This document shows positions 12,505 to 25,200 of a stretch of 64,000 bases of DNA, piece by piece; position 1 is the first letter of the stretch, and each line of letters starts with the position of its first letter. A model generated the notes under the pieces. It was not told the origin of the DNA. It saw only the letters and a list, made by a program, of their open reading frames with translations, and did no database searches. Origin of the DNA: Aridibacter famidurans. Its GTDB lineage: Bacteria; Acidobacteriota; Blastocatellia; Pyrinomonadales; Pyrinomonadaceae. Where the stretch lies: the NCBI GenBank assembly GCA_024103495.1, contig JAGFIQ010000149.1, positions 1-64,000 of the forward strand, in the 5' to 3' direction. The translations under genes and the position numbers were made by a program.

Positions 12505-13344
12505 TCAATCGCTATCAGGCACTCCGGCCCAAAGCACCTGTTCGATCATCCAACCGTCTCCGTTTCTGGACAGCAGCATATAGTCGACGCCCCAGTACGC
12601 CGTTACTTTGATCGCCGCGATGTGGTTCATCGCGTCCAGGATCTCTACTTTTCTGGGGGCATCCGCGCCCGGAAACGACTTCTTTTCCGCCACGCTCCTG
12701 GCGAATGCGATCGCCTGATCGAATGTCATTCGTGAACCCGGCCGATATGCTCGCAAGTCTTGGTTATAGCCGAACCCGAACTTGAACATCGCGGGCCGCA
12801 GACTCCCCGACAGCTTGGCTGTGTCGCCTTTGTAGAATCCGTCGATGTACAGATATCCCGTATTTCCGATCTTCTCCTGATCCGCCGGCGTCGGAGACGC
12901 TGTTTTTTTCGGGCCTTCCCATAGGATCTGGCGGATCTTCCACTGCCCGTCATTCTTTGCCAGCAGCATATAGTCGATGCCCCACCAGGCGACGACCTTT
13001 GTTATGGCGATCTTCTCTCCGATGTCCAGGACCTCCACGGATCTGGGGGCGTCAGGACCCGGAAACCTGCCGGACTTCTTTACGTCGGCCGCGTAAGCGA
13101 GCGCCTCTTCGTAGGTCATCTGCCCGGCATTCTCGTAAGTATCCGAGTCCTTTTCCTGCCAGAATCCGAACTTGTAGAGTTGCGCATCGAGTGCCTCGGT
13201 AAGTTTCCCGGGATCACCTTCATAGAACCCCTCTATGTATTGCATCGAAGCGCGTTCAACCGCTTCGCGGTCGCTTTGGGCGTGAGCGAGAACGGAGAAC
13301 GCGAACGTGACGATCATTGCTGCGAAGAGTGCTTTTATTTTCAT
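12505..13344 (-). CDS. Exported tandem lumazine-binding/NTF2-like protein
   Basis: A 279-residue protein with a signal peptide (MKIKALFAAMIVTFAF to AHAQ). The start is at ATG 13344, preceded by AAGGAAGC; the open frame extends further upstream without coding character. The mature part is a duplicated domain (about 25-150 and 160-279). Each copy has Y-(I)-(E/D)-GFY-GD--KL--AL---KFGF, an M(T)(Y/F)--A(L/I)AFA segment, APR-VE(I/V)LD and VDYMLL-(K/R)-(D)G-W-I. This is the pattern of putative lumazine-binding (PF12893-type) members of the NTF2-like superfamily. Both copies are complete. The function is unknown; two modules in one chain would mimic the usual NTF2 dimer. Confidence 0.85.
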   Translation of the reverse strand: MKIKALFAAMIVTFAFSVLAHAQSDREAVERASMQYIEGFYEGDPGKLTEALDAQLYKFGFWQEKDSDTYENAGQMTYEEALAYAADVKKSGRFPGPDAPRSVEVLDIGEKIAITKVVAWWGIDYMLLAKNDGQWKIRQILWEGPKKTASPTPADQEKIGNTGYLYIDGFYKGDTAKLSGSLRPAMFKFGFGYNQDLRAYRPGSRMTFDQAIAFARSVAEKKSFPGADAPRKVEILDAMNHIAAIKVTAYWGVDYMLLSRNGDGWMIEQVLWAGVPDSD

Positions 13345-13463
13345 TATTGCTTCCTTATATATGTATTGATCGGATCGCCTGCTTACAGGCCGACTGCAAA
13401 TCCTGCTGTTTCGCAATGTTCTCGCGAATTGAAAAACAGAGATCTTCACGCGGTGGCTGCCGG

Positions 13464-15005
13464 TCAACGACCGGCGACCTTCAGGAACTTGTCCTGTCCC
13501 TCGATCAGCGCAGTGACACCTTCGCGCTCGGTCGATTCGAAGGTCCAGGTCGTCGGGGAAAGAACCAGGAAATCAACTGCGAAAGAGTCCCCGGTCAGGT
13601 GAGTCAGCTTTGACGAATGACTCCCGATTCCCGCAAAAAGCGAGTTGTCTCTTAACGTGATCTCGATCTCGCCGAATTCATCGTTGCTGTAAACACCCAC
13701 GTAATTGCTCAAAGGGAAGCTCGGCTGTTTAATGGACGCCGGCTGCCCGGTCTCCGAATCGCTCGTGTTCGAATCCGAACGCCTCTGTTCCGTTCTTCTC
13801 AGGTAGTCATCGATCGCCGGATTTCCTTCGATGCTTAAGTCCCTTTTTCCCAACAGATAGTCGTAGATCTCATTCGCGACCAGGTCCGGAAGAAAGAAAC
13901 TCTCGACGCTTTCATTCACGAGCACGACCACGCCGATCTTGTGCTCAGGCATAAAGGACGTGTGCGGACGAAACCCTGCAAAGGTGCCGAATGAATGTAT
14001 GAACTCCTCGCCTTTGTACGTCGCCAGATTCCATCCAAGGCCGGCCGCGTAACGCCGGTATGTGTAAAAAGTGCGGTCCTGATTTATCTGCGGAGAGATG
14101 AGTTCCCGGACGACGCGCGGCGAAAAGACCTGCTCCCCTTTGTACTTTCCGGCATTCATCATCACGATAAGCCAATTCGCCAGATCCTCAGCGGACGAAA
14201 CGGTCCCGCCCGCGGCGTGCATCGTCTTGTCGTCTTTATACGGAAGTTCGACGAAGCCTCCGTCTTCATATCCGTAAGGCAGCGCGAAGTTTCCACTTGC
14301 TGTCGCTTTCGACGCGTACGACGAAGTGTTCCGCATGCCGATCGGCTCGAATATCAGACTCTGCGCCAGATCTTTCCAGGACTTGCCCGTCGCTTCCTCA
14401 AGCGCCAACCCCGTGACGATATAGCCCAGGTTCGTGTAACGGTATGCGGGCGAGGTGGCGTACCCGTACTTCGACAGATTTTCGATCAGAATGTCCTTGT
14501 CGTACTGGCCCGAAAAAGACGTCCTGAACCCGAGCCCGTTGCTCCTCAGTCCCCCGCGATGTGTGAGAAGGTCCCGCAACGAGATCTGCTCCTCGGAAAG
14601 CGGCGCCTTCAGCTTTAGGCCCGGGAGATAGGTGCTGATCGGTACATCAAGATCTATCTTGCCGTTCTCCGCCAGGATCTTTGCGGTCGCCGCGGTGAAA
14701 ACTTTTGTGCCCGATGCGATATAGAACTGGGTCTGGGCGTTTACGGGAAGTCCCCTGTCCAGGTTTCGATAGCCATAGCCTTTTGAAAAAACTATTCGAT
14801 CGTCCTTCACGATCGCGACCGCCATTCCGGGCGCGGTAGGGAACTTTTCCCTCAGATTCCTGATGTGACTATCCAGCTTCTCTGCATCGACCGCGCTCAA
14901 ATTCCTACCGCCATCTGCCCCCTGGCTTCTGACTTCGGAAGGCAAGAAAGTCGCGAGCCAAAGGGGCAGGATGGCGATAACCAGAAATGTGCGAACAATA
15001 CTCAT
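13464..15005 (-). CDS. Secreted beta-lactamase-family serine hydrolase
   Basis: A 513-residue class C beta-lactamase/PBP-fold protein with an N-terminal signal segment (about 1-28). Catalytic motifs: SxxK at Ser98-Lys101 (ASGTK), YxN at Tyr190-Asn192 (YTNLGY) and, in place of KTG, HSFG at 337-340. This motif set is usual for esterase/D-aminopeptidase-like members rather than true antibiotic-destroying enzymes. After the fold (to about 400) there is a linker rich in Arg, Ser and Asp and a C-terminal beta-rich domain of about 85 residues (SNYVGVYSNDEFGEIEI), as in Pab87- or DAP-like lipocalin domains. The substrate is unknown. A promoter candidate lies at 15079-15107. Confidence 0.9.
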   Translation of the reverse strand: MSIVRTFLVIAILPLWLATFLPSEVRSQGADGGRNLSAVDAEKLDSHIRNLREKFPTAPGMAVAIVKDDRIVFSKGYGYRNLDRGLPVNAQTQFYIASGTKVFTAATAKILAENGKIDLDVPISTYLPGLKLKAPLSEEQISLRDLLTHRGGLRSNGLGFRTSFSGQYDKDILIENLSKYGYATSPAYRYTNLGYIVTGLALEEATGKSWKDLAQSLIFEPIGMRNTSSYASKATASGNFALPYGYEDGGFVELPYKDDKTMHAAGGTVSSAEDLANWLIVMMNAGKYKGEQVFSPRVVRELISPQINQDRTFYTYRRYAAGLGWNLATYKGEEFIHSFGTFAGFRPHTSFMPEHKIGVVVLVNESVESFFLPDLVANEIYDYLLGKRDLSIEGNPAIDDYLRRTEQRRSDSNTSDSETGQPASIKQPSFPLSNYVGVYSNDEFGEIEITLRDNSLFAGIGSHSSKLTHLTGDSFAVDFLVLSPTTWTFESTEREGVTALIEGQDKFLKVAGR

Positions 15006-15345: not shown

Positions 15346-18132
15346 TCACTTCTCACCCGGCACCTTCGAAACGAACAGATCCAGATCTCCGGCGCTGTTT
15401 ACCGTGGTGTGACCCGTTACGACACATCCTCCGTCGGATGTCGGCGAAACGGTGTATCCGAAACTTTGTCCGGCCTGTGTCGGCAAGATGTTTGTCACCT
15501 TCCTAAGATTTCCATTTGCGTCCGCCTTGAGCAGGATGGCTGCGGTCCCGTAGACGTTCCGGTTTACGGAAAAGCCGGTCAGGCACAAGTTGCCGTCAGT
15601 CGTTTCCGTACCTGTGATGGTCCGGTTGTGCCCCTCCATCTTCAGGACACTTGTCCAGATCGTCTTGCCCCTGGCGTCGACCTTGACCAGGTACGGGTCA
15701 TCGGCGTCCTCGGCGAAACTTGTCGTATATCCGGTCACGAGGAAGCCGCCGTCCTTGAGCCTGGTGACGGAGTGTCCGACGTCAGACGCATCGCCTCCGA
15801 ACGAACGGGACCAGATCAGTTTACCTTCCGAGTCGGTCTTCAGGACATACATATCCCTGTCACCTGCGCCGTAGGTGTAAGTTTGCCCGGCAATGACGTA
15901 ACCGTCGTCGTCATCCGGAACGATCGAGAAACAGCGGTCGCCTTTCTCTCCGCCGAATGTCCGGGACCACTTCTCAACTCCCTGATCATCGGTTTTGATC
16001 AGGAGGCAATCCGGTTCTCCTTCAGGCAATGCACCGGTTGTTTCGCCAATCAGAACAAAACCTCCGTCAACGGAACGCGCCAGTCCCCAGGTCCGTTCGT
16101 CTCCCTTTCCTCCGTATGTCTTCTGCCAGATCAGCTTGCCCTTCAGATCGGTCTTGATCAGCAGAGAATCGAATCCACCGGCTCCGAAACTTTTTGTGAA
16201 GCCGCCAATGACAAAGCCGTCTGACACCTCAAGCACAGACCATCCCGCGTCCTCTTCGGCACCGCCGAACGAGGCCGACCATTCTTGAGTTCCATTGGCG
16301 TTGATCTTGACAACGTAAACGTCATCCCCGCCATTTCCCTGACTCTGAGTCGCTCCAACTGAAAGGAAGCCTCCATCGGTTGTTTGAATCATAAACACTC
16401 CCCTGTCCTGAGCCTTGCCTCCCAGTACGACCTCAAATTTGTCCCCGGATTGATTGGCCGAAACCCTTCTGAAATTGCTTTCGATCACTTCCGCGAGTTC
16501 CGCGTCTCCGCTTTCATTAGCTTTCCTAAAGCCCGTCTCGTAGCTCTGCCTCGCGAGTTCTAACTTGCCCGCGGTCTCATACGCCTCTCCCAGGCTGTCG
16601 TATGGATTCGCCCGTTCCGGATAGTACTCGGTGTTGAGCTTGAACACTGATATCGCGTCCCTGACCTTCTTCTCCGAAAGAAACTGATAGCCAAGTTCGT
16701 TGACGAACTCCTCGGAATCGACATACTTGTTCTTCTTGTCCGCCTTGAACCGCCGAAATAACTTGATCGCCGGCGCCAGGCCATCTTTAGCGATCGTGCT
16801 CTTGATCAGGTCATCCAGTGGGGGCTCGTCCGAGAAGTTCAGAATTGCCTCCATCGCCGGATCGATCCCTTTTCTGTAATTCTCTGACGTTAGTTCGGCA
16901 GCGATCTCGGGGGCGGTCCACTTTCGCGTGTCCCAAGGCCCCATCTGCTCGAACCTTACGAACGAGGCCCGCACGGTGATCCCGCTGTTCGGAAGCACTA
17001 TCTTGTAGTTGTCGCCGTACGGATTCACGTGCGAGGCGGTCGGTTCTCCGACCACGATCGCGTTCGTGTACATCTCCATCTCGTTGACGAAGTACTGAGC
17101 GGCGGAGAAGGTCCTTCGGCCCGTGATCAAGAACAGCTTGCCACGCTTGTCGAGTTTCGACCTGATGATCCCGAGGAGCAGCGGACGAGAACGCAGATTG
17201 CTGCCGCCACGGTTCCAGCGAACGTCGACGACCATCCGTGCCACATCGTTCTTTTCGATGAACTTGAACATACGGTCCGCGAATTCCCGGATGCTTTCAT
17301 CCTCCTTGTCCTGAACCTCGTTGTATCTGAAGTACAACGTCTTTGACTCCGGGAGGTACTCGAACCAGTAGCTGTCCTCCGGATCCCCTTTCTGCCAAAG
17401 CGGAGTCGTAACCGACGGGTCGCGCGCATCGACGAAACTGATCCCGTCGATCCCCTTCTCGGTCTGTGCGTGCCCCTCGAGCAGTAGTTTGCCTTTCGGC
17501 TTCAAAGTTATGGTTGCCCGCTTCCCGTCTTTCTCCAGTTCGAATGTTGCGGAACTGGCGTCGTCGGTGACCCGCAGAGAATGAAGGATCTCCGGCGTGG
17601 TCAAAAAATAGGGCGCGTAAAACCTGGCCCACATCTCGTTGTCCCTTGAGATAAGGGGTGTAACCGCATCGATCGCTTCGGCGGCAGGCAGCTTTCCGAT
17701 CCTTATCACACGTGCGCCGGCGAATTCCGCGAACTCCTTCTCGATCTTCTGAACGAACAGGCCGTCCTCGTAAAGGTACAGCCGAATCGGCAGCGAGCTG
17801 AACGCGATCTTCGGATCGGAATACAAACGGATCCCCGAATGCCCATCGCCGATCAGCGCCGTGATTCGCGACAGCTCGACCGCCACCTCATGGTCTTCGA
17901 GGCTCGGCAATCCTTCGGAAAGCTTGTCGAACGCCTTTTCAAAATCTCCTTTCGGGGTCGTGTGGTACAGGTTCAGGTGTCGCTTTGGAAGTTCGGCCCG
18001 CAGGAACTCGATGTCCTCGCGCCATCGATCCGTAGTCAGCCTTTGCTGTGCGAACACTGCGGATTGAAGCAGGATCAGGCAAATGAACGCCATCAATAAC
18101 CGGTTAGCGGCATACATCTGTTTAGTCTTCAT
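15346..18132 (-). CDS. Secreted S41 peptidase fused to TPR and seven-blade repeat domain
   Basis: A 928-residue protein with a signal peptide (to about residue 28, AVFAQQ) and AAGGAACGG before the ATG. Residues 30-420 resemble S41 (C-terminal-processing/tricorn-like) peptidases: an N-terminal helical part, DARDPSV, RMVVDVRWNRGGSN, and the likely nucleophile Ser343 in RRTFSAAQYF, followed by VVGEPTASHVNPYG. Residues about 465-545 contain TPR-like helices (NPYDSLGEAYETAGKLELA). Residues 565-925 hold seven repeats of about 50 residues with the pattern DGG(F/Y)---G-T----G--D--L(I/V)K-D--G---W---(F/Y)GG, the secreted-propeller pattern usually found alone. It sits between the serine hydrolase gene and blaR1/blaI-like genes on the same strand. 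Confidence 0.87.
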   Translation of the reverse strand: MKTKQMYAANRLLMAFICLILLQSAVFAQQRLTTDRWREDIEFLRAELPKRHLNLYHTTPKGDFEKAFDKLSEGLPSLEDHEVAVELSRITALIGDGHSGIRLYSDPKIAFSSLPIRLYLYEDGLFVQKIEKEFAEFAGARVIRIGKLPAAEAIDAVTPLISRDNEMWARFYAPYFLTTPEILHSLRVTDDASSATFELEKDGKRATITLKPKGKLLLEGHAQTEKGIDGISFVDARDPSVTTPLWQKGDPEDSYWFEYLPESKTLYFRYNEVQDKEDESIREFADRMFKFIEKNDVARMVVDVRWNRGGSNLRSRPLLLGIIRSKLDKRGKLFLITGRRTFSAAQYFVNEMEMYTNAIVVGEPTASHVNPYGDNYKIVLPNSGITVRASFVRFEQMGPWDTRKWTAPEIAAELTSENYRKGIDPAMEAILNFSDEPPLDDLIKSTIAKDGLAPAIKLFRRFKADKKNKYVDSEEFVNELGYQFLSEKKVRDAISVFKLNTEYYPERANPYDSLGEAYETAGKLELARQSYETGFRKANESGDAELAEVIESNFRRVSANQSGDKFEVVLGGKAQDRGVFMIQTTDGGFLSVGATQSQGNGGDDVYVVKINANGTQEWSASFGGAEEDAGWSVLEVSDGFVIGGFTKSFGAGGFDSLLIKTDLKGKLIWQKTYGGKGDERTWGLARSVDGGFVLIGETTGALPEGEPDCLLIKTDDQGVEKWSRTFGGEKGDRCFSIVPDDDDGYVIAGQTYTYGAGDRDMYVLKTDSEGKLIWSRSFGGDASDVGHSVTRLKDGGFLVTGYTTSFAEDADDPYLVKVDARGKTIWTSVLKMEGHNRTITGTETTDGNLCLTGFSVNRNVYGTAAILLKADANGNLRKVTNILPTQAGQSFGYTVSPTSDGGCVVTGHTTVNSAGDLDLFVSKVPGEK

Positions 18133-18252: not shown

Positions 18253-19863
18253 CTATTCGCGGGCGCCGATCGATTCAAGATAGGCGGCGACGTCCGAGCG
18301 TCCGCCCTTGCGAGCCATTCCGAGCGCCGTTCTCCATTCGGTCTCGCCCGTCTTGTTCGACAGATGCACTTCGAAACGCGCGTTTATATCCGCTCCGCGC
18401 GCAACGAGCAGTTTCACAACGCCGAGCTTGCCGGCTCCGCTGGCTGAGATGAGCGCGTTCTCGTCGCCCGGCACATAGAGATCGACGTTCGCTCCGCGGT
18501 CCAGAAGAATTTCGACGATCTTCAAATGCCCTTCGCGCGCTGCCGCGATCAAGGCGCTGCCGTCGCCTTTAACCGCCATATTTACGTCCGCTCCACGGTT
18601 GAGCAATAAAGTCACAGCATTCGTGTTACCGTTCCGGGAAGCGCCGATCAGAGGGCTTCCGTCGCCGTCGAGCTTGCAGTTGATATCCGCTCCCGCGGCA
18701 AGCAGTTTTTTGATCTCGTCTGTCAGGCCCTCTTCGGCAGCCTCGAAGAGCGCGCGATCCAGCGGCGAATCCTTCTCAGCGGTCGTCTCTGCACTTTCAT
18801 CGTTGAACCCAAGAGCTGTCGAGGTCACCGATTGAGCGACCGCGTGAAGAGGTCCGACCGAGAATACGAGAGCCGTTGCGATGGCAACTGAAGCCGCGGC
18901 CGCAAGAAACCCGGCTCTTCCGCGCCTCTGCCCGGAGTCGAGCAACGCGGTCACGCGCCTCGAAAGGTCGCTTCTCGATGCCATGTTGAGAATCGGTCGT
19001 GTCCGCGTTTCGGAGAGCTGTTGCGACAGGGTCACGAGCTGATCCGCATATTCGATATGTTCCGAGTTCTGAACCACAGCGTCATCGCATGCGCGCTCGG
19101 CCTCGAGGCAGAGCTTTCGCCAGGCCATCCAGACCAAGGGATGAAACCAGTAAAAAGCGCAGGCGGCGCGGGCAGCCAGCTGTGTGGCCCAGTCGCCGCG
19201 CTTTATGTGTTCAAGCTCGTGTACGATCGCGCGGCGAAGATCTGCTTCGGCCCATTCCCTTGAATCGATCGGCATCATTACCACTGGTCGGAGCAGTCCA
19301 TATGTGACCGGCGAGCGTATTTCCTCGTGCAAGAGCACTTCGACCGGCCTATGCAAACCGTTCTCGGAGGCGATCCTTTCGGTCAGGTCTTTCATTTTCT
19401 TGTGCGGCAAACCGTTCCGCCTGAGAGCGCGGACACGCCAGAGATCCAAAGCCACCGAACCGATCAGAAGAAGGCTTCCGACGACCCAGACACCGCGAAG
19501 TACAAAGGCCGCCGAAATCGAGGACGAACTTTGCGAAGCCTCGGATTTGGAGATCGTGCTGGTGGCCGGAGTATTCACACCCGGGGCTGAGGCAGCTTCA
19601 GTGGTGCCGGGAGCAGGTTGTGCAACGGTTTGGGCTGAAGGGATCTCGATACTGAGATATGGAAAAGTAGCGACGATCATCGGCAGCGAGAGCAGCGAGA
19701 GAAGCGTGGTCGCCACGATCAAATGACGCGTCGACGCCTTCGATCTAACTGCCAGGGTTGCGATCGCCAGGCCGAGAACCAGCAGAAGGGTAGATTTCGT
19801 CAGTATCGAAAGTTCGAACGACTGACTCACAAAAAGCGCCAGTTCCGTGATCATTGAGTTCAT
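18253..19863 (-). CDS. BlaR1-like M56 metalloprotease with ankyrin-repeat C-terminus
   Basis: A 536-residue membrane protease. Transmembrane segments lie at about 24-40, 47-70 and 121-142, with a fourth at about 317-345. The zinc site is HELEH at 215-219, and the third ligand is probably Glu254 in CLEAERACDDAV, the usual M56 pattern. In BlaR1/MecR1 the fourth helix leads to a penicillin-binding sensor domain. Here residues 367-535 are instead about five ankyrin repeats (DEIKKLLAAGADIN, TNAVTLLLNRGADVN, LKIVEILLDRGANVD, LGVVKLLVARGADIN). The start codon overlaps the stop of the BlaI-like gene by four bases, so the pair is translationally coupled. The inferred role is a signal-activated protease that inactivates its repressor partner. 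Confidence 0.9.
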   Translation of the reverse strand: MNSMITELALFVSQSFELSILTKSTLLLVLGLAIATLAVRSKASTRHLIVATTLLSLLSLPMIVATFPYLSIEIPSAQTVAQPAPGTTEAASAPGVNTPATSTISKSEASQSSSSISAAFVLRGVWVVGSLLLIGSVALDLWRVRALRRNGLPHKKMKDLTERIASENGLHRPVEVLLHEEIRSPVTYGLLRPVVMMPIDSREWAEADLRRAIVHELEHIKRGDWATQLAARAACAFYWFHPLVWMAWRKLCLEAERACDDAVVQNSEHIEYADQLVTLSQQLSETRTRPILNMASRSDLSRRVTALLDSGQRRGRAGFLAAAASVAIATALVFSVGPLHAVAQSVTSTALGFNDESAETTAEKDSPLDRALFEAAEEGLTDEIKKLLAAGADINCKLDGDGSPLIGASRNGNTNAVTLLLNRGADVNMAVKGDGSALIAAAREGHLKIVEILLDRGANVDLYVPGDENALISASGAGKLGVVKLLVARGADINARFEVHLSNKTGETEWRTALGMARKGGRSDVAAYLESIGARE

Positions 19864-20252
19864 TGCTTACTCCTTTCCTTGCGGACCGCGTCGATCTTTG
19901 CGCGAAGTTCGTCCAGTTCTTCGTCGGTCCAGTCTTCCTGCTTCAGCAACGCCGTCGCCGTGTCTCCCGGGGAACCGCCAAAAAAGACCCTGACGATCTC
20001 ATCGAGGGCGTTCCGTTGTGCTTTCTGTCGCGGGATCGTCGGGACATAAACATATTTGAGGCCTTCTTCGTGATGAAGAACGTAGCCTTTCGACTCCAGC
20101 TTGACGAGCATCGCCCGCACGGCGGAATAGCTTGGCGGGTCCGTAAGCAGCTGGCGGACGTCCTCAACGGATGCGCGATCCCCGATCGAATAGAGCGCGT
20201 TCATTATCTCGCGCTCCCTGCGTGAAAGGTTCTCTATTGGCGGCAGGCTCAT
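19860..20252 (-). CDS. BlaI/MecI-type transcriptional repressor
   Basis: A 130-residue winged-helix protein of the BlaI/MecI/CopY family. The N-terminal DNA-binding domain is about 1-75 (LSRREREIMNALYSIG, VEDVRQLL, SAVRAMLVKLESKGYV), and the C-terminal dimerisation helices end in ELRAKIDAVRKE. Family members are dimeric repressors cleaved or displaced through the M56 sensor protease encoded next to them. The ATG at 20252 follows AGGAGAAAAT. Its own promoter contains perfect palindromes (20282-20306), so autorepression of the blaI-blaR1 pair is likely. No matching palindrome was found before the beta-lactamase-family genes of this window, so additional targets are unknown. Confidence 0.93.
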   Translation of the reverse strand: MSLPPIENLSRREREIMNALYSIGDRASVEDVRQLLTDPPSYSAVRAMLVKLESKGYVLHHEEGLKYVYVPTIPRQKAQRNALDEIVRVFFGGSPGDTATALLKQEDWTDEELDELRAKIDAVRKERSKQ

Positions 20253-20281
20253 GATTTTCTCCTTCCTAGTGTGCTATGAAA

Positions 20282-20312
20282 GTAGCATAGTGCTACATTT
20301 GTAGCATGTCAA
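20282..20312 (-). promoter_or_regulatory. BlaI promoter with operator in the spacer
   Basis: On the minus strand TTGACA (20312-20307) and TATGCT (20289-20284) are 17 bases apart. The spacer is almost wholly the perfect palindrome TGCTACATTTGTAGCA (20291-20306, plus-strand reading), which contains the TACA...TGTA core expected of BlaI/MecI operators. A second dyad, GTAGCA and TGCTAC around TAG (20282-20296), overlaps it and the minus 10 box. The predicted 5-prime leader is about 25 bases. Confidence 0.85.
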
Positions 20313-24479: not shown

Positions 24480-25200
24480 TGATTCGATCTGGAGCGTGCT
24501 TTGGGGGCGATGGAAATGTCGTGGCGGTTGGTCTGATCGGGCAATGAGCGCGGGGCAACTGAAAGTGAGGGGCGGATAGAAGTTGGTCGACGGAAGTTTA
24601 CCGGCTCCGTATGAGCCCGATGTCTGTAGCACCGATTCATGAACGTTGACCGCAGCCCCATAGGGGCTGAATGCTGTTTGCGCAGATTGCGCTCCTAACG
24701 GAGCGTGGCTCATTGCCGGGGCGTTTTGCTATTAACATTAGGCTCCTGACGGAACCGAAGATCGTCCTCACAAGTCGAGATCCTTCTGGGATCGCTTCGC
24801 CGAAGTGAACCGGCTCCGTGGGAGCCCAATGTCTGTAGCACCGGTTCGTGAACGATGACCCCGGCCCCGCAGGGGCTGAATGCTCCATAAGAAGATTGCG
24901 CTCCTACGGAGCGCGGATCGATCTTTGGAATGTCCTGCTACAGACATCGGGCTCCTACGGAGCCGAAGAAGAGTTTCTTCAAAGCAAGTACTCGGCAGGA
25001 CACAAGGGCCACCTGAGAGGAAAACGTCTATCTCTAAGACAGGCTCATCAGATTGGACCCAAGAGTTGTGCGGGCTTCAGTCGGTGGATTTTGGGGCTGA
25101 AGCCCCATGAATTTTTCCCCCCTTTAACCCCCGTTGAATCGGGGGGCAACTGATAAGCAGTGGTAACTGATAATCGGGGGTCAACTGACGGGCTTCAGCC
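24480..25200. repeat. Composite array of stem-loop repeats, no gene
   Basis: A roughly 900-base gap packed with repeats. Three successive family B composites run about 24595-24700, 24805-24910 and 24940-24975: CCGGCTCCGT..GGAGCCC, GATGTCTGTAGCACCG, GGGGCTGAATGC and GATTGCGCTCCTACGGAGCG. Family A hairpins end the gap (about 25085-25200; CCCCCCTTTAAC..., CCGTTGAATCGGGGGGCAACTGA and TAATCGGGGGTCAACTGA). Open frames here are short and lack domain signatures. Confidence 0.7.

Follow-up and report, generated by a model that had tools for sequence, protein, structure and literature searches.

A probable BlaI/BlaR1-type switch with a predicted extracytoplasmic ankyrin sensor in Aridibacter famidurans

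To our knowledge, nearly everything learnt about BlaR1 signalling comes from the sensing of beta-lactams, and the coupling of its sensor to its protease is still debated. The locus analysed here, part of a 64,000-nucleotide stretch of Aridibacter famidurans DNA (the window), raises the question of what such a system might report when its M56 protease, m56-ank, carries ankyrin repeats in the place of the penicillin sensor. With a probability of roughly three in four, we interpret blaI and m56-ank as an autoregulated proteolytic switch of the BlaI/BlaR1 type with an extracytoplasmic ankyrin sensor (Table 1). The anatomy of this circuit is well supported by computation, from its genes, catalytic residues and topology signals to its operators, single-site regulon and conservation. 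In the absence of a signal, BlaI dimers would occupy a tandem pair of operators that covers the -35/-10 region and thus keep blaI and m56-ank, and probably also a downstream S41/TPR gene, at a low level. Once a protein or peptide of the periplasm bound in the ankyrin groove, the membrane part would change, in analogy to BlaR1, and this change would switch on the cytosolic gluzincin protease, which would cut BlaI near residue 100 and derepress the operon. Because protein-binding ankyrins outside the membrane would replace the penicillin sensor, it is reasonable to infer that the signal is probably an envelope protein or peptide and not penicillin.

Table 1. Features of the switch and its operon, in window positions (residues are those of m56-ank)
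Feature	Position	Strand	Basis and details
-35 element TTGACA of the blaI promoter	20307..20312	-	Consensus scan; shared by 6 related genomes
Operator 1, the perfect palindrome TGCTACAAATGTAGCA, which takes up most of the 17-bp spacer	20291..20306	-	Conserved across families
-10 element TATGCT	20284..20289	-	Consensus scan
Operator 2, the imperfect palindrome TGCTACTTTCATAGCA, which overlaps the -10 element	20272..20287	-	19 bp from operator 1
blaI, BlaI/MecI-type winged-helix repressor, 130 aa	19860..20252	-	Pfam PF03965; PDB match to BlaI DNA-binding domain 1p6r
m56-ank, 536-aa M56 protease of the BlaR1 type, ending in an ankyrin domain	18253..19863	-	Pfam; PDB match to BlaR1 8exs/8exp
Cytosolic zinc-protease part, residues 140-314	18922..19446	-	H215ELEH, D224, E256xxxD260, Y272, R303
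Fourth membrane helix, residues 316-345	18829..18918	-	Hydropathy 2.1; K/R 4 before, 0 after
Five ankyrin repeats, predicted extracytoplasmic sensor, residues 367-536	18256..18765	-	Pfam, AlphaFold, VIA-align, dN/dS
Secreted S41-peptidase-like/TPR/beta-propeller protein, third operon gene, probable regulated output	15346..18132	-	Pfam S41, 34 bits

The blaI and m56-ank genes and their products

The earlier note had described a full M56 protease with a HELEH motif at residues 215-219 and four helices, coupled to a BlaI repressor by a four-base overlap and with about five ankyrin repeats in the place of BlaR1's penicillin-binding domain, and each part of this description stands. The m56-ank reading frame is intact, and its product, the sole M56 protein found by a search of the 4.38-Mb genome, matches Pfam PF05569 (M56) over residues 56-307 with 121 bits (cut-off 31), has HELEH at the position given and contains four hydrophobic helices by hydropathy (residues about 16-38, 46-68, 117-140 and 316-345). 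It is joined to blaI by an ATGA overlap at 19860-19863, and BlaI, the only BlaI/MecI-type repressor found in the genome, belongs to the winged-helix Penicillinase_R family (PF03965; 83 bits, cut-off 22.6). No Rfam RNA was found in the window.

Across an alignment of 92 M56 proteins, residues H215, E216, H219, D224, E256, D260, Y272 and R303 are invariant. Their counterparts in BlaR1 are H201EXXH, D210, E242XXXD, Y261 and R294 (PMC9834060), matched through an alignment with BlaR1 of Priestia megaterium in which Y272 and R303 were assigned by alignment position. Every residue known as critical in BlaR1 is present in m56-ank and invariant among its relatives, so that an active protease is to be expected. 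On the side of the predicted substrate, the scissile region ATAL of BlaI aligns with LVQF of Priestia BlaI, and the residue after the predicted cut is Leu in all aligned Acidobacteriota BlaI sequences, the window's included, and Phe in that of Priestia. Phe is near-invariant at the classical BlaI cleavage site, where it is a typical trait and no strict requirement.

The C-terminal part of m56-ank consists of tandem 33-residue helix-turn-helix repeats with an ankyrin fold. Pfam gives ankyrin matches from residue 372 onward, among them Ank_2 over residues 372-461 with 92 bits; the AlphaFold model folds the C-terminal 170 residues into five helix pairs (pLDDT mostly 80-94); and VIA-align superposes this part on an ankyrin repeat protein with a Z of 25.8 over 160 residues. 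For its M56 part the model has low confidence, with a shallow alignment of four sequences, and this poor quality made a structure search uninformative for that region; the match list is taken up by the ankyrin part, to which PADLOC matches are limited as well. Only ankyrin families match the C-terminus, which has no SxxK motif and no penicillin-binding (class D-like transpeptidase) domain, and the NCBIfam model blaR1_generic reaches 99 bits (cut-off 400) in a match that stops at residue 356.

Promoter, operators and regulated genes

A consensus scan gave four promoter-like sites, the best of which is the blaI promoter (TTGACA-17-TATGCT, 20312-20284). An operator does lie inside it, as had been noted earlier, though its palindrome spans 20291-20306 and not the claimed 20282-20306, and a second operator over the -10 element had gone unmentioned. 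Both operators have a BlaI-type core, TACANNTGTA in operator 1, which places predicted operators of the BlaI/MecI kind in the repressor's own promoter. The same layout is found upstream of blaI in the related genomes G002, G087, G345, G386, G006 and G451 (in the last with the second site 22 bp away), and the block TTGACATGCTACAAATGTAGCAnTATGCTA recurs with hardly a change before blaI in relatives that belong to four families, and practically only there. A pattern search of eight genomes for the 30-bp promoter-operator block, run at up to 3 mismatches alongside a reversed control pattern, found it at blaI with 0-2 mismatches in seven of them; the operators of G341 are degenerate. Away from blaI there was one unrelated 3-mismatch match in G087, and the reversed control matched once, in G386. 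On this comparative evidence the palindrome is not a product of chance, because the whole block is conserved across families. Homology, phylogenetic footprinting and selection together support the M56-ankyrin fusion, its coupling to BlaI and the autoregulation claimed earlier.

A search of the genome for further regulon sites, which the earlier note had proposed as a check, located the full site only at the switch's own promoter. Pattern searches returned no further site within 2 mismatches of TGCTACANNTGTAGCA in the 4.38-Mb genome, and relaxed operator scans of the same genome gave no second full site, the other matches having 1-2 mismatches and lacking the promoter block, on which grounds a wider regulon was rejected. 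With the block essentially confined to blaI promoters, the predicted regulon is therefore the switch's own operon.

The operon order blaI, m56-ank, S41/TPR gene is kept in G002, where the orthologue of the third gene (80% identity over 535 aa) has 588 aa compared with 928 in the window; gene lists place a divergent TetR-S41 pair on the other side of the switch in both. Neither a terminator nor a promoter on the operon strand was found in the 120-bp gap before the S41/TPR gene, which is probably co-regulated as the output of the operon. The downstream genes of other families encode DUF4932, CBM9/DUF5916 or amidohydrolase proteins, and since they vary in this way the output would be no fixed part of the system. 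As separate observations, the C-terminal beta-propeller (delta-60/SBBP-like) encoded at 15346-18132 is apparently missing from the G002 orthologue; the protein encoded at 12505-13467, where the possible operon ends, has two Lumazine_bd_2 (NTF2-like) domains in tandem; and positions 24593-24965 hold a 105-nt direct repeat (83%) along with an inverted copy of 30 nt, which may represent a small element of mobile or palindromic type.

This neighbourhood also bears on the nature of the signal. In a variant of our explanation that differs from it in the signal and that we consider unlikely, the switch would respond indirectly to beta-lactams or cell-wall damage, with the ankyrins binding a penicillin-binding or S12 beta-lactamase-fold protein of the envelope and the operon serving resistance or the repair of the cell wall. 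Two genes downstream there is indeed a gene of the S12 beta-lactamase fold (13464-15005; PF00144, 197 bits), after 340 bp and possibly with its own promoter, and a free secreted ankyrin homologue in G006 is encoded beside another S12 gene, so that the two neighbourhoods give a weak hint of S12-type hydrolases as partners. Against this variant stand the missing transpeptidase sensor and SxxK motif, the lack of any matched S12 gene near the G002 switch and the fact that many S12 proteins are no beta-lactamases.

Constraint, ancestry and topology of the ankyrin module

The window and G002 share 84% identity in the ankyrin part, with a dN/dS of 0.12, compared with 76% and 0.19 for the stretch from TM3 through the protease to TM4, 52% and 0.32 for loop 2 and 14% identity for the linker. 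The comparison with G087 ranks these parts in the same way (58% for the ankyrin part, 47% for the protease part and 22% for loop 2), and the ankyrin part is the most conserved within the whole protein. Its low dN/dS therefore suggests a constraint at least as strong as that on the protease and favours a binding function. The residues invariant among five orthologues of the clade include the hairpin tips GDG (400-402 and 433-435) and DEN (467-469), which we regard as candidate ligand contacts.

Within Acidobacteriota, to which our survey was directed, full-length M56-ankyrin proteins are encoded in G002 (74% identity), G087 (46%), G345 (49%), G386 and G341 (with ten repeats). A phylogeny of M56 proteins with C-terminal ankyrins, likewise suggested earlier, resolved one main clade of fusions, with others on two separate lineages. 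The tree, built from 92 M56 domains, groups these proteins and that of the window (100/84) with a protein with a Lys-rich tail from G006 and one with two SLBB domains from G451. G462, whose gene is a frameshifted M56-ankyrin fusion, is sister to this clade (85/92), giving six intact fusions and one frameshifted in one small M56 clade, and ankyrins also occur on two further M56 lineages (L085 in G262 and L109 in G233). The simplest reading of the tree would be one old fusion with two sensor replacements since. The G462 gene (L091, 1473-2950) has its frameshift around helix 4 and a later in-frame stop, and is either decayed or an assembly error. In the G451 protein (L083 / L114:8891-10651) the two SLBB domains form the C-terminus, and its blaI is preceded by the same operator block.

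The fusion is rare in Blastocatellia, occurring in three of 162 genomes, with a fourth match, in G006, lacking ankyrins; a scan of genome contigs yielded two ankyrin fusions and two M56 proteins without ankyrins. No relative was found on viral contigs, and matches on plasmids were ankyrin-only or M56-only, none covering 80% of the query. Among the C-termini of 90 Acidobacteriota M56 proteins we counted polysaccharide deacetylase (18), HEAT (11), TonB_C (9), ankyrin (8), PepSY (6) and transpeptidase (4) domains, among others, and the beta-lactam sensor is therefore the exception in this set. Judged by their domain matches, exchanged sensors are common on Acidobacteriota M56 proteins, and the ankyrin version adds another variant. 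Two further C-termini (L011:508-1425 and L024:2221-3174) consist of an unrecognised repeat, NLSxxELxxLKxxGVTPxYIxxLRxAGY, without a Pfam match and possibly another sensor type.

That two members of the clade have other C-termini, Lys-rich or SLBB, under an unchanged operator block would suit an improbable alternative in which the ankyrins are a tether or a dimerisation or stability module, the C-terminus is exchangeable ballast and the signal is read by the membrane part or by the extracytoplasmic loop between helices 2 and 3. However, it is the ankyrin part that is most constrained and loop 2 that is poorly conserved by the values given above, and SLBB is itself a ligand-binding fold.

A sensor facing the envelope requires that the ankyrins lie outside the cytoplasm, as the earlier note had proposed, and several lines of prediction support this placement. 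BlaR1 itself has an N-out/C-out topology (PMC9834060). Four helices, a cytosolic protease and an extracytoplasmic C-terminus are predicted for m56-ank from hydropathy and charge bias; more K/R residues stand before the last helix than after it in 78 of the 92 M56 proteins, the window's among them, while the charges flanking helix 4 in G087 (L019) break the positive-inside rule. In addition, G006, a genome of the same genus whose own M56 relative has no ankyrins, encodes a free ankyrin protein that is 41% identical and carries a clear N-terminal signal peptide, which is independent support for this ankyrin module working outside the cytoplasm. This protein is encoded at L128 1362-3400 (G006:C8 near 740491) and directly followed by the gene of the secreted S12 beta-lactamase-fold hydrolase. 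It is quite doubtful that the ankyrin domain instead lies in the cytoplasm, or is cleaved off behind helix 4 and then acts elsewhere as a binding protein of its own: although in both the window and G002 helix 4 resembles a signal peptide (RRGRA, a hydrophobic stretch and AVA-QS), the AxA site is missing from relatives (AVR in L012, AVS in L019, AVG in L081), so that release by signal peptidase was rejected for want of a conserved cleavage site, and BlaR1 homology together with the charge bias places the C-terminus outside. The earlier remark that such a location is unusual for ankyrins needs to be softened, since a periplasmic ankyrin-like protein, AnkB, is known according to a citation in PMC10294975 and sensors are so commonly exchanged on Acidobacteriota M56 proteins.

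Comparison with known systems

Beyond this locus, we lean towards a broader view in which Acidobacteriota would combine a conserved BlaI-M56 chassis and a fixed tandem-operator promoter with exchangeable extracytoplasmic protein-binding modules (ankyrin, SLBB and others) and thereby use BlaR1-type proteolysis for reporting envelope proteins and not antibiotics. On this view the beta-lactam switch would be one specialised form within a wider family of envelope-sensing systems. A clade in which the same protease and promoter come with an ankyrin, SLBB or Lys-rich tail makes the sensor-dependent steps of signalling testable and provides a naturally occurring scaffold on which ankyrin-based transmembrane biosensors could be built. 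Our literature search, which covered 5.39 million papers, found no mention of BlaR1 together with ankyrin, and M56-ankyrin architectures may be present in databases and unpublished.

The closest known systems, BlaR1/BlaI and MecR1/MecI of Staphylococcus and Bacillus, share with the window the four-helix M56 gluzincin with all catalytic residues, a C-terminal domain after helix 4, the link to a BlaI-type repressor and operators with the TACANNTGTA core over the repressor promoter. In contrast to them, the window has no penicillin-binding sensor, has blaI as the first gene of the operon and overlapping the protease gene, carries Leu in place of Phe at the predicted cleavage site of BlaI and shows no other full operator in its genome. 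By homology, the system should work like BlaR1/BlaI, but m56-ank is no BlaR1, because the defining penicillin-binding domain is absent. Ankyrin repeats outside the cytoplasm are shared with AnkB of Pseudomonas aeruginosa, which supports catalase and, as it is cited in PMC10294975, is a free protein that is not fused to a protease or regulator. An exchanged sensor and the pairing with BlaI are shared with Acidobacteriota M56 proteins that lack the penicillin-binding sensor (those with TonB_C, HEAT, PepSY, SLBB and others), and the M56-BlaI pairing also with the BlaR1 homologue of M. tuberculosis, in which the sensor is missing (PMC9834060). Compared with these sensor-less or exchanged systems, the window is distinguished by its ankyrin sensor and its conserved tandem-operator promoter.
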